Origin: Lysobacterales bacterium
Lineage (GTDB): Bacteria > Pseudomonadota > Gammaproteobacteria > Xanthomonadales > SZUA-5
DNA: 64,000 nucleotides
Reading direction: 5' to 3'
Assembly (NCBI GenBank): GCA_022844165.1
Contig: JALHMH010000001.1
Coordinates: 62,001 to 126,000, forward strand
The notes under the pieces are model-generated. The model searched no databases, had not been told where the DNA came from, and saw only the letters and a list, made by a program, of their open reading frames with translations. Positions 1 through 18,848 of this stretch are shown piece by piece (the first letter of the stretch is position 1; the number at the start of each line of letters is the position of its first letter). The position numbers and the translations under genes are program-made.

Positions 1-2
1 TA

Positions 3-731
3 CGCGAACATCCGGCCTCTGCCGTGGCGCGCCTAAGCACCTTGTTAAGCTCGCTGGGCGCAATGACCGACCGTTGGGAAGTGGTCTTTGTGATGCGCGC
101 GGCAAGCAATCGCGGCGATGCCAGCGAATCCTGGACCGGGGCACTGTCCGCGCGCCTGGCCGTCGTATTGATCAATAACGCAAGCGAAAATTCCATTGCA
201 GACACCGTGCATTGGTTGGCGACGGCATGGGTACCCCACGTGCGCTTCGCCCTGCCCGAACAATCGCCAGAGGTGCTGGCCGCGCCGGCGATTGCAGAGC
301 TTCAGGCGCAACTGCCCATAGAGCAGCACGGTCGAATTGCGCAGCTCGCCGAGGGCATCGCCGATGCGGCGACCGCCCATGCGATGCTGGCAAACGCCGA
401 TGCCTGGTGTGCTCAAGCGGTTGCGGAGATGCGAACGCGACCGAGCTTTGCGTCAGTGCGTGGGATTGAGACCAGGTGCATCCGCGATCTGACCATTTTG
501 CTCAAGTCGATCGCTTGTTTCCTGGGCTCAGGACTTGGCGATGTTCCTATACGAGTTCGCGCATTTGCAGCGGCGCACTTGTTGCCGTTCCTACAAGAAG
601 AAACGCGCAACTTCGGCACTGAACTGGTTGCAGTGTTGCAGGCGCAGATGGCACAACTGAGCGGCACGTCGCGCAACCGGGTCGCAGCGCTCCTGGCCTC
701 AGTTTATCAACACGACGGTGCCCCGCAATGA
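3..731 (+). CDS. Phycobiliprotein-like (bilin-associated globin) protein, 5' end outside window
   Basis: The frame is open from the window edge, so the true start is probably upstream; the first candidate inside is GTG at 24. The C-terminal half resembles allophycocyanin-type globins. A segment reading GIETRCIRDLTILLKSIACF (Cys at 477-479) fits the family pattern around the chromophore Cys84, where allophycocyanin beta has ACIRDLDYYLRYATYAML. The Ala/Asn-rich helix before it (HAMLANADAWCAQAVAEM) also matches the helix that precedes this site in phycobiliproteins. Cys, Arg and Asp are all kept, so thioether attachment of a bilin is possible. The visible part is 235 residues, longer than a phycobiliprotein (about 160), with an N-terminal part I do not recognise. 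Its stop overlaps the next start as ATGA. The relationship is inferred by eye from motif and helix pattern. Confidence 0.6.
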   Translation, partial: REHPASAVARLSTLLSSLGAMTDRWEVVFVMRAASNRGDASESWTGALSARLAVVLINNASENSIADTVHWLATAWVPHVRFALPEQSPEVLAAPAIAELQAQLPIEQHGRIAQLAEGIADAATAHAMLANADAWCAQAVAEMRTRPSFASVRGIETRCIRDLTILLKSIACFLGSGLGDVPIRVRAFAAAHLLPFLQEETRNFGTELVAVLQAQMAQLSGTSRNRVAALLASVYQHDGAPQ

Positions 732-17425: not shown

Positions 17426-18127
17426 CTAACCGTCGCCAATCGACTGAGTGGCATCGAAGGTTTGCATCATCAACGCAACCTGCGTGCGATTGCGCGCGTC
17501 CAGTTTTTGCATGATCGACTTCATGTGCACCTTGACCGTCGCTTCGGTGATCTGAAGTTGTGCTGCGATCTGTTTATTCAACATCCCGGTTGCCAACATG
17601 CTGGCAATACGGAACTGTTGTGCGCTGAGCGCTCCAATCTGGCGTGCCGCCGACTGCTCTTTCGAGCTCAATTGTGGTACGAACCCCAACTCGCTCAGTG
17701 AAGCAGGAATGTAGCGCGAACCGGACAGCACCTGGCCGAGCGCCTTGGAAATTTCCCGCAACGGTGCGGATTTGGGAATGAAGCCCGCTGCGCCCAGCTG
17801 CAGAGCCCGGCGGATCGTCAGTGGCTCTTCCTGCGCCGAGATGACGGCAACGCTCAGGCCAGGCGACTTCGCGCGCACGTGGATCAGGCCCGACAAACCA
17901 TGCGAGCCGGGCATGTTCAAGTCGAGCAAAACCAGATCGACGTTTTGATCGCGATTGAGCAGATCCTGAAGGCAATCCAGCGTATCGGCCTCCAACACGG
18001 ACGCCGACGGGAAGTTGGCGCCTACACAAGAAACCATCGCGTGCCGGAACATCGGATGGTCGTCCGCAACGATAATCGTCCCGACTGCCTTGATGTCGAT
18101 CAGGTGGGGACTGAACAAACTAGACAT
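17426..18127 (-). CDS. LuxR/NarL-type response regulator
   Basis: A 233-residue protein from the ATG at 18127, which overlaps the heme oxygenase stop by 8 bases; a longer upstream reading is open but would run through the heme oxygenase gene. The receiver has IIVADDHPMF and the phosphate site in VDLVLLDLNMPG, with AISAQEE-like and FIPKSAP conserved positions. The C-terminal HTH reads LSAQQFRIASMLATGMLNKQ, then ITEATVKVHMKSIMQKL, as in LuxR-type DNA binding. It is the obvious DNA-binding output for the hybrid kinase 31 bases downstream. Its targets may include the nearby divergent gvpA promoter and its own operon. Confidence 0.95.
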   Translation of the reverse strand: MSSLFSPHLIDIKAVGTIIVADDHPMFRHAMVSCVGANFPSASVLEADTLDCLQDLLNRDQNVDLVLLDLNMPGSHGLSGLIHVRAKSPGLSVAVISAQEEPLTIRRALQLGAAGFIPKSAPLREISKALGQVLSGSRYIPASLSELGFVPQLSSKEQSAARQIGALSAQQFRIASMLATGMLNKQIAAQLQITEATVKVHMKSIMQKLDARNRTQVALMMQTFDATQSIGDG

Positions 18128-18848
18128 GCACGTGCTGCGCTGCGTGCGCAAATGGGCAGCCCAACGATCCTTGGCGTGCCGGGCGTGGCGCAGGCATGGC
18201 GACTTCGCCAAGCCATGCGCTCAGCGAGCCGAAGACGAAGCGCGCAACGTCGATCATGCGATTCTCATCGAGGTCGGTTGTGTTTTCGATCTGTTGAATG
18301 GTGCGTCTCCATACCTGCCCGTGCGCGCCGTCATAACAATCGAAGTATGTCACCGCGTTAGCGACAGTCTGACCCAGATGTTCGTTGAGCGCGCGGCGAA
18401 TCACTTGTCCGCCCAAGGTGGCGCCTTCGAACACATACACCACGCCGGCGCGCGTCGACTCATCGTGGCAATCCAGTTCGTCGAATACTGGCGAACTGGT
18501 ACTCCGGGGGAAGTCGCGCATACCGACGGCGGCGAGATCGGATTCAAGCTTCGGTGTGCGCTGGCAGGCGAGGTTGAAGACGGCATGTTGTGCCTGCGCC
18601 ATACGCAACTCCAGGGGTCCCACATAACCCAGCAGCCGCAGCAGCAACAGCCGATACTCATTCAGGCTGTAATCTGGCTCTAGCAGCCGGCGCATGCAGG
18701 GCACGGCCTCGATCATGTCGTGGGCCTGGCGTGTGTTTAGTCGCAAGCGCTGAATGCGCGATGTGGAGCGATCGCCATGCAGATCGCCCGATTCGCCGGA
18801 TAGCGACGCGGCTGGCAAAGTCGTTAGCAACACAGCTTTGGATCCCAT
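18120..18848 (-). CDS. Heme oxygenase (bacterial BphO/HO-1 fold)
   Basis: A 242-residue protein. The proximal heme ligand is His43 in RLRLNTRQAHDMIE, and the distal helix has GVVYVFEGATLGGQVI with the flexible glycines. The helix GYVGPLELRM and the acidic patch near VTYFDCYDG also fit. It would open heme to biliverdin, CO and iron using reductant from the ferredoxin pair encoded in the facing operon. The C-terminus has a tail with GCPFAH, a Cys-Pro dipeptide (231-232) like heme regulatory motifs. It is first of a three-gene operon with the response regulator and phytochrome-like kinase. The first 30 residues are less conserved and the start could be slightly further in. Confidence 0.93.
   Translation of the reverse strand: MGSKAVLLTTLPAASLSGESGDLHGDRSTSRIQRLRLNTRQAHDMIEAVPCMRRLLEPDYSLNEYRLLLLRLLGYVGPLELRMAQAQHAVFNLACQRTPKLESDLAAVGMRDFPRSTSSPVFDELDCHDESTRAGVVYVFEGATLGGQVIRRALNEHLGQTVANAVTYFDCYDGAHGQVWRRTIQQIENTTDLDENRMIDVARFVFGSLSAWLGEVAMPAPRPARQGSLGCPFAHAAQHVHV

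Follow-up and report, generated by a model that had tools for sequence, protein, structure and literature searches.

A pre-1 bilin gene cluster with large, predicted phycobiliprotein-like proteins beside gas-vesicle genes in a Lysobacterales bacterium

What does a bacterium apparently without photosynthesis build with bilin enzymes and several proteins that are, or are predicted to be, phycobiliprotein-like? The question is raised by a bilin-metabolism island in a stretch of 64,000 nt, here called the window (positions 62,001-126,000 of contig JALHMH010000001.1, assembly GCA_022844165.1, from a Lysobacterales bacterium of GTDB group SZUA-5). A preliminary description of this DNA had listed a heme oxygenase, a PcyA-family reductase, a ferredoxin, a ferredoxin reductase, two V4R proteins, a coiled coil and a kinase/phosphatase pair, and a Pfam scan of the window proteins recovered all of them. 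By gene set and order, the island belongs to the known pre-1 kind of cluster. We propose that it builds a phosphorylation-controlled, multi-chromophore bilin-protein complex for light or redox sensing, not for photosynthesis, a reading that in our estimate could equally well be right or wrong.

Pre-1 clusters comprise a heme oxygenase, an iron-sulfur (Fe-S) protein, two V4R proteins, one or two bilin biosynthesis-associated globins (BBAG), which are close kin of phycobiliproteins, and a pre-PcyA reductase, and they had no assigned function in the main text of Rockwell, Martin, and Lagarias (2023; PMC10151467). The same text reports that the globin of Methylovulum psychrotolerans binds bilin poorly and is photoinactive, and that its reductase is weakly active. 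In the window, a reductase of the ferredoxin-dependent bilin reductase family likewise lies beside an Fe-S protein, two V4R proteins and a globin, with a heme oxygenase nearby. We surveyed such clusters with one genome per species and a 26-sequence reductase alignment, which led to 19 loci, including that of the M. psychrotolerans strain whose pre-1 enzyme was tested (L010; L-numbers denote loci and G-numbers genomes compared). Within the fetched DNA, which for L023 and L041 is too short for several genes, V4R-A and the reductase were found in all 19 genomes, the BBAG in 17, the ferredoxin and V4R-B in 16 each, the kinase in 15, a conserved open reading frame (ORF I) in 10, a giant protein in eight, and the phosphatase and heme oxygenase in five each. 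Heme oxygenase excepted, the M. psychrotolerans locus is collinear with the window, in the order Fd-V4R-X-BBAG-V4R-kinase-ORF I-phosphatase-reductase (Fd, ferredoxin). The arrangement had been thought likely to be new; its gene order is in fact common to other pre-1 clusters, M. psychrotolerans included, and what looks new are the extra large proteins, predicted globin-like, multi-domain chains of 717 and 1282 amino acids (aa). Together with these, a FFxxLPW linker motif, the loss of the BBAG cysteine and the gas-vesicle setting look undescribed. The words 'tandem', 'fused' and 'gas vesicle' were not found in the main text of PMC10151467, and among the matches listed for titles and abstract starts of the open-licence literature, none dealt with tandem phycobiliprotein-like proteins in clusters of this kind.

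The bilin operon starts before the window, at a PAS-GGDEF-EAL gene in the locus sequence extending upstream (L002), and its genes overlap or are spaced by 44 bases or less. The gene for the 717-aa protein runs from L002:12575/12578 to 14731 and thus starts 1423 or 1426 bases upstream of the window, so that window positions 1..731 (+ strand), previously described as a possible globin, contain only its tail. That tail nevertheless encodes a predicted phycobiliprotein-like domain (aa 574-713; 297..716, + strand), since the AlphaFold2 model of the C-terminal domain resembles phycobiliproteins in the VIA structure matches. The domain carries the sequence R-C634-I-R-D (C634 codon, 477-479), and this CxRD chromophore motif is kept in all nine members of the protein family; a second CxRD, near residue 200, is present in eight of the nine. 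Although the window's protein had no PF00502 match in Pfam, one relative matches this family at 2e-5, passing the Pfam cut-off. Foldseek with the whole model returned nothing below an E-value of 0.001, with WapL at the top rank and no phycobiliprotein among the 50 matches listed; the phycobiliprotein matches of this model were obtained by running VIA over the lower Foldseek ranks. Judged by its motif and its predicted fold, the 717-aa protein would be a CxRD-bearing relative of phycobiliproteins; no copy of it turned up in the DNA fetched for the 19 other pre-1 genomes.

The adjoining gene (728..4576, + strand) encodes the 1282-aa giant, whose model covers residues 1-1190 with a predicted local distance difference test score of 76. 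Its predicted phycobiliprotein-like domain spans aa 525-677 (2300..2758, + strand), many of the matches also using helices from aa 297. Phycobiliproteins occupied 21 of the 50 Foldseek rows shown, 20 of them with probability 1.00, target template-modelling (TM) scores of 0.58-0.65, a root-mean-square deviation of ~7 and E-values of 0.47-1.5, and the last with probability 0.92 and TM 0.39; importins ranked top, and the whole model gave no E-value below 0.001. With VIA, 46 of 50 rows were named phycobiliproteins or phycobilisomes and the remaining four were fluorescent proteins; the rows mostly span ~297-677, and those without the early helices run from 524-546 to 677. By its predicted fold, then, the giant is phycobiliprotein-like. 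At sequence level, the window copy matches PF00502 at 0.051 only; scoring 7994 candidates yielded seven close relatives, and PF00502 matches at ~530-600 (E-values 0.0036-0.12) occur in four of these eight family members, namely three relatives and the window copy. A giant profile found no phycobiliprotein among PDB sequences.

No member of the giant's own lineage (window copy and seven close relatives) contains CxRD. However, two sites of the window giant, T591-R-R-D (2498-2509) and G845-E-R-D (3260..3271, + strand), correspond to positions at which some verrucomicrobial giants read CxRD, and the latter also aligns to KCxRD of the 717-aa protein, whose Cys200 domain pairs with the GERD domain (probabilities 41 and 56; E-values 3e-4 and 1e-4). 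Distant relatives of the giant, verrucomicrobial and other, lie upstream of the ferredoxin gene in eight of the 19 pre-1 genomes; five of the eight giants (G767, G770, G771, G773, G774) belonged to the alignment behind the search profile, whereas the window giant alone recovers six (L028, L031, L032, L033, L035, L036), L019/L029 being recovered by the window-lineage profile and L037 by a mixed profile only. The four complete verrucomicrobial giants measure 1936-2022 aa; in HHalign the window giant aligns with them twice over (99.9% and 98.4%), and they therefore contain an internal duplication. There are four CxRD motifs in each of the L028 and L036 giants (both ~1940 aa), two in L032 and none in L031, nor were any present in the giants of Rubrivivax (L029) and Agitococcus (L033). 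Of five giants from other genomes examined with Pfam, that of L028 gave a weak PF00502 match (0.0049) across its CLRD and the other four gave none.

The Foldseek rankings, headed by WapL and importins and without E-values below 0.001, would also suit a different view, in which the two large chains would belong to the ordinary helical-repeat proteins and be mere look-alikes of phycobiliproteins. A BBAG profile likewise failed to find either protein at significance, and when this profile was aligned by HHalign with ten segments cut by hand from the two proteins, no pair was significant (the high-probability pairs between neighbouring segments reflected shared overlap only and were discarded). 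Against this, Pfam matches in relatives, PDB sequence matches, the structure lists and the placement of the CxRD motifs agree independently, so that we regard a mere look-alike as highly improbable. The preliminary description had proposed up to three phycobiliprotein-like globins, to be given up if predicted structures had no globin fold: both large proteins came through that examination, their predicted structures retrieving phycobiliproteins although the window copies lack a significant PF00502 match, and the third, at 7925-8524, is clear by sequence.

This third protein is the BBAG-type globin itself (7925..8524, + strand; PF00502, 5.8e-10, 39.8 bits against a cut-off of 22.2 bits). At the CxRD site it reads A-P-R-D (8192-8203) and has thus lost the chromophore cysteine, which is kept in the BBAG of 16 of 17 other genomes. 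Because the BBAG and the giant have both lost theirs, the chromophore cysteines of this lineage sit on the 717-aa protein, and these would be the residues that bind bilin. Just one further BBAG without the cysteine was seen (L031:15188-15754; ATRD), at the locus whose 2022-aa giant is likewise devoid of CxRD.

Between V4R-A and the BBAG, 16 genomes encode a low-complexity protein with one to six FFxxLPW-like motifs, 44 in total against 0.15 expected from shuffles, odds that are after the fact in that the pattern was defined after viewing these proteins. A control over 802 other ORFs gave 30 matches, 18 of which fell in six duplicate copies of linker genes; two more (L040, L041) occupy the linker position, leaving 10 background matches. 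Counting L040 and L041, which match at the same place, the FFxxLPW linker is present in 18 of 19 genomes. In the window its place is taken by a coiled-coil protein of 721 aa (5763..7928, + strand) with no Pfam family, which keeps one motif, YFQMLPW (7761-7781), near its end. The FFxxLPW protein could be read as a multivalent scaffold. Between the V4R genes of the Acaryochloris plasmid cluster lies an ORF (L027:11000-11488) that resembles a second globin and not the FFxxLPW linker; a plasmid collection contained no pre-PcyA and had V4R-A in two Acaryochloris plasmids only, and no BBAG was found in a phage collection.

The bilin enzymes are the heme oxygenase (18120..18848, - strand; 4.7e-11) and the pre-PcyA ferredoxin-dependent bilin reductase (12297..12980, + strand; Fe_bilin_red, 9.7e-17), accompanied by a 2Fe-2S ferredoxin-like protein (4573..5046, + strand; Fer2, 2.3e-11) and an FAD/NAD(P) ferredoxin reductase (12991..14163, + strand; 6.5e-44). 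The main text of PMC10151467 describes pre-1 reductases as lacking PcyA Glu76, His88 and Asp105, with Glu76 special to true PcyA. In numbering deduced from the alignment, the window reductase has Glu60, Ser68 and Glu85 at these columns; it therefore lacks His88 and Asp105, as reported, and departs from the published kind in carrying a glutamate at the Glu76 column, a feature of 12 of the 26 reductases (the window's and its 11 closest relatives). Glu60 hints at phycocyanobilin as a possible product, in contrast to the pre-1 enzyme that was tested. V4R protein A (5091..5750, + strand) matches V4R at 3.2e-17; protein B (8531..9229, + strand) does so weakly (0.052), its kinship being supported by homologues that also match V4R-A. 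ORF I (11159..11803, + strand), conserved between the kinase and the phosphatase or reductase, matched no Pfam or NCBIfam model.

In the proposed complex, heme oxygenase would yield biliverdin, which the pre-PcyA reductase, fed by ferredoxin and ferredoxin reductase, would reduce. Since neither the giant nor the standard globin retains its cysteine in this lineage, the 717-aa protein would then receive the bilin on its two CxRD cysteines; the V4R proteins may handle or deliver it, and a scaffold would be provided by the giant together with the coiled-coil/FFxxLPW protein. The kinase and phosphatase could switch the assembly, perhaps via ferredoxin, and the EAL protein possibly carries the output. 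Gene content, gene spacing and the CxRD motifs with their conservation were read from the sequence and the folds are predicted, whereas the mechanistic steps we infer.

The nearest described counterpart of such control is Synechocystis slr0144-slr0152 with SpkG, where, in the excerpts of PMC11863333 and PMC9880817, spkG closes the operon and phosphorylation of the ferredoxin Fd5 is lost without it, SpkG activity being unverified. This operon likewise contains Fe-S, two V4R, globin and Ser/Thr kinase genes, and in those excerpts differs from the window in lacking heme oxygenase and reductase. By analogy, an SpkG-like control of ferredoxin may operate here. The same sources report that the Slr0144-0149 proteins interact and link them to photosystem assembly and repair, which, with two globin positions in the window devoid of cysteine, would fit a V4R/Fe-S/globin complex for the assembly or repair of membrane or redox proteins, bilin being a mere cofactor or ligand, as proposed for slr0144-slr0152. 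However, besides heme oxygenase, reductase and ferredoxin reductase the island keeps a protein in which two CxRD cysteines are conserved, and the genome has no PF00124 photosystem protein to repair, and we consider this role unlikely, though worth keeping in mind. The presence of heme oxygenase and reductase, and of up to four CxRD sites per verrucomicrobial giant, could instead point to heme breakdown with storage or neutralisation of bilin on many-site proteins, for iron recovery or as an antioxidant. Such a purpose would call for neither the conserved kinase nor the linker motif nor the EAL protein, and heme oxygenase is in the fetched DNA of only five of the 19 genomes; we judge it distinctly unlikely.

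The island encodes several putative signalling proteins. The Ser/Thr protein kinase (9222..11162, + strand; Pkinase, 4.8e-34) keeps its catalytic motifs, with HCD in place of HRD, and the dual-specificity phosphatase (11815..12300, + strand; DSPc, 1.7e-8) keeps CxxGxxR. The island was thus rightly said to have its own signalling, although this is shared with other pre-1 clusters (kinase in 15 and phosphatase in 5 of the 19 genomes), and we rejected the idea that the pair is unique to the window. In the Acaryochloris plasmid counterpart of the slr0144-slr0152 cluster, no Ser/Thr kinase is annotated within the stretch fetched; a histidine kinase lies upstream. Two Opitutales loci, in which no dual-specificity phosphatase was matched, have by eye a PP2C-like phosphatase gene downstream of the reductase (L015:11030-11815, L016:11024-11740), preceded by a second ferredoxin gene. 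The PAS-GGDEF-EAL gene (L002:10743-12578), which the preliminary description had missed along with the gas-vesicle cluster, ends within the start codons of the 717-aa gene. Its product has a degenerate GGDEF (SAGEF) and EAL motifs that appear intact, and by the motif rules that distinguish cyclases from phosphodiesterases it is more likely a phosphodiesterase.

The opposite strand encodes, besides the heme oxygenase, a LuxR-type response regulator (17426..18211) and a phytochrome-like hybrid histidine kinase (14209..17394; PAS_2, GAF, PHY, PAS, HisKA, HATPase and receiver domains), the sole PHY match in the source genome. Its PAS-GAF-PHY-kinase layout is that of bacteriophytochrome kinases. 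The canonical bilin-site residues of bacteriophytochromes are an N-terminal Cys, the PASDIP Asp and a GAF His; the protein starts MPAAHAIQPHG, two codons past a stop, without that Cys, and when it is aligned with a solved phytochrome its residues at the other two positions differ. It is therefore unlikely to work as a normal bilin switch, and we rejected a role as normal photoreceptor, which weakens this kinase as a candidate for the island's light sensor.

Could the complex be an antenna? Phycobilisomes, whose core linker is ApcE, have PF00427 linkers and supply a reaction centre. The large proteins share a predicted fold and the CxRD motif with phycobiliproteins, yet several such domains are predicted per chain, no PF00427 match was found among the island proteins scanned, and the source genome has no PF00124 reaction-centre gene (type I reaction centres were not searched), in agreement with the absence of photosynthesis first supposed. 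We see little probability in a phycobilisome-like antenna outside photosynthesis, in which multi-globin bilin chains on the FFxxLPW linker, switched by the kinase and phosphatase, would sense light and signal to gas-vesicle synthesis and flotation in this lineage.

Gas-vesicle genes flank the island on both sides, and the presumed starts of the divergent heme oxygenase and gvpA genes are separated by a gap of 209 bp (18849..19057). This raises the idea of light-controlled buoyancy, the complex reporting light to the gvp genes through the LuxR regulator at the shared upstream region, or through cyclic di-guanosine monophosphate. Three PF00741 matches occur in the source genome, which is one of two with this family among 398 genomes of the order, the other match being weak; the bilin reductase is found in one of 369 genomes of the class, the source itself, and the one same-genus genome available (G372) has neither. 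As both are rare and absent from G372, the gas-vesicle genes and the bilin cluster likely arrived together, and a working link between the island and flotation is possible from their position. Nevertheless, the search that matches in the source genome recovered no gas-vesicle gene from any of the other 19 pre-1 genomes, so we rejected them as general partners of pre-1 clusters; adjacency in a single genome may be chance or joint transfer, and the phytochrome-like kinase has no bilin-site residues. Light-controlled buoyancy is accordingly improbable in our view.

The multi-domain globin-like proteins with CxRD, the repeat linker and the conserved kinase suggest that non-photosynthetic bacteria make large bilin assemblies, a finding that would be relevant to the origin of antennae. 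Since two related clusters come from named strains instead of metagenomes (M. psychrotolerans Sph1 and Agitococcus lubricus DSM 5822), and flotation provides a visible read-out through the neighbouring gas-vesicle genes, the system is testable.

The gas-vesicle cluster proper (18989-26071) comprises three GvpA-family genes, GvpF/L and AAA ATPases. In order on the + strand, there are GvpA (19058..19276; PF00741), an AAA_5 ATPase in Pfam (19870..21075), which by its position we take to be GvpN, GvpF/L (21659..22390; PF06386, 6e-47), two further GvpA-family genes (22626..23501; matches at 22656-22769 and 23214-23330) and, beside them, a CDC48-like AAA ATPase (23921..26071). A second GvpF/L, also identified by Pfam, lies upstream of the operon (L002:9938-10702, - strand).

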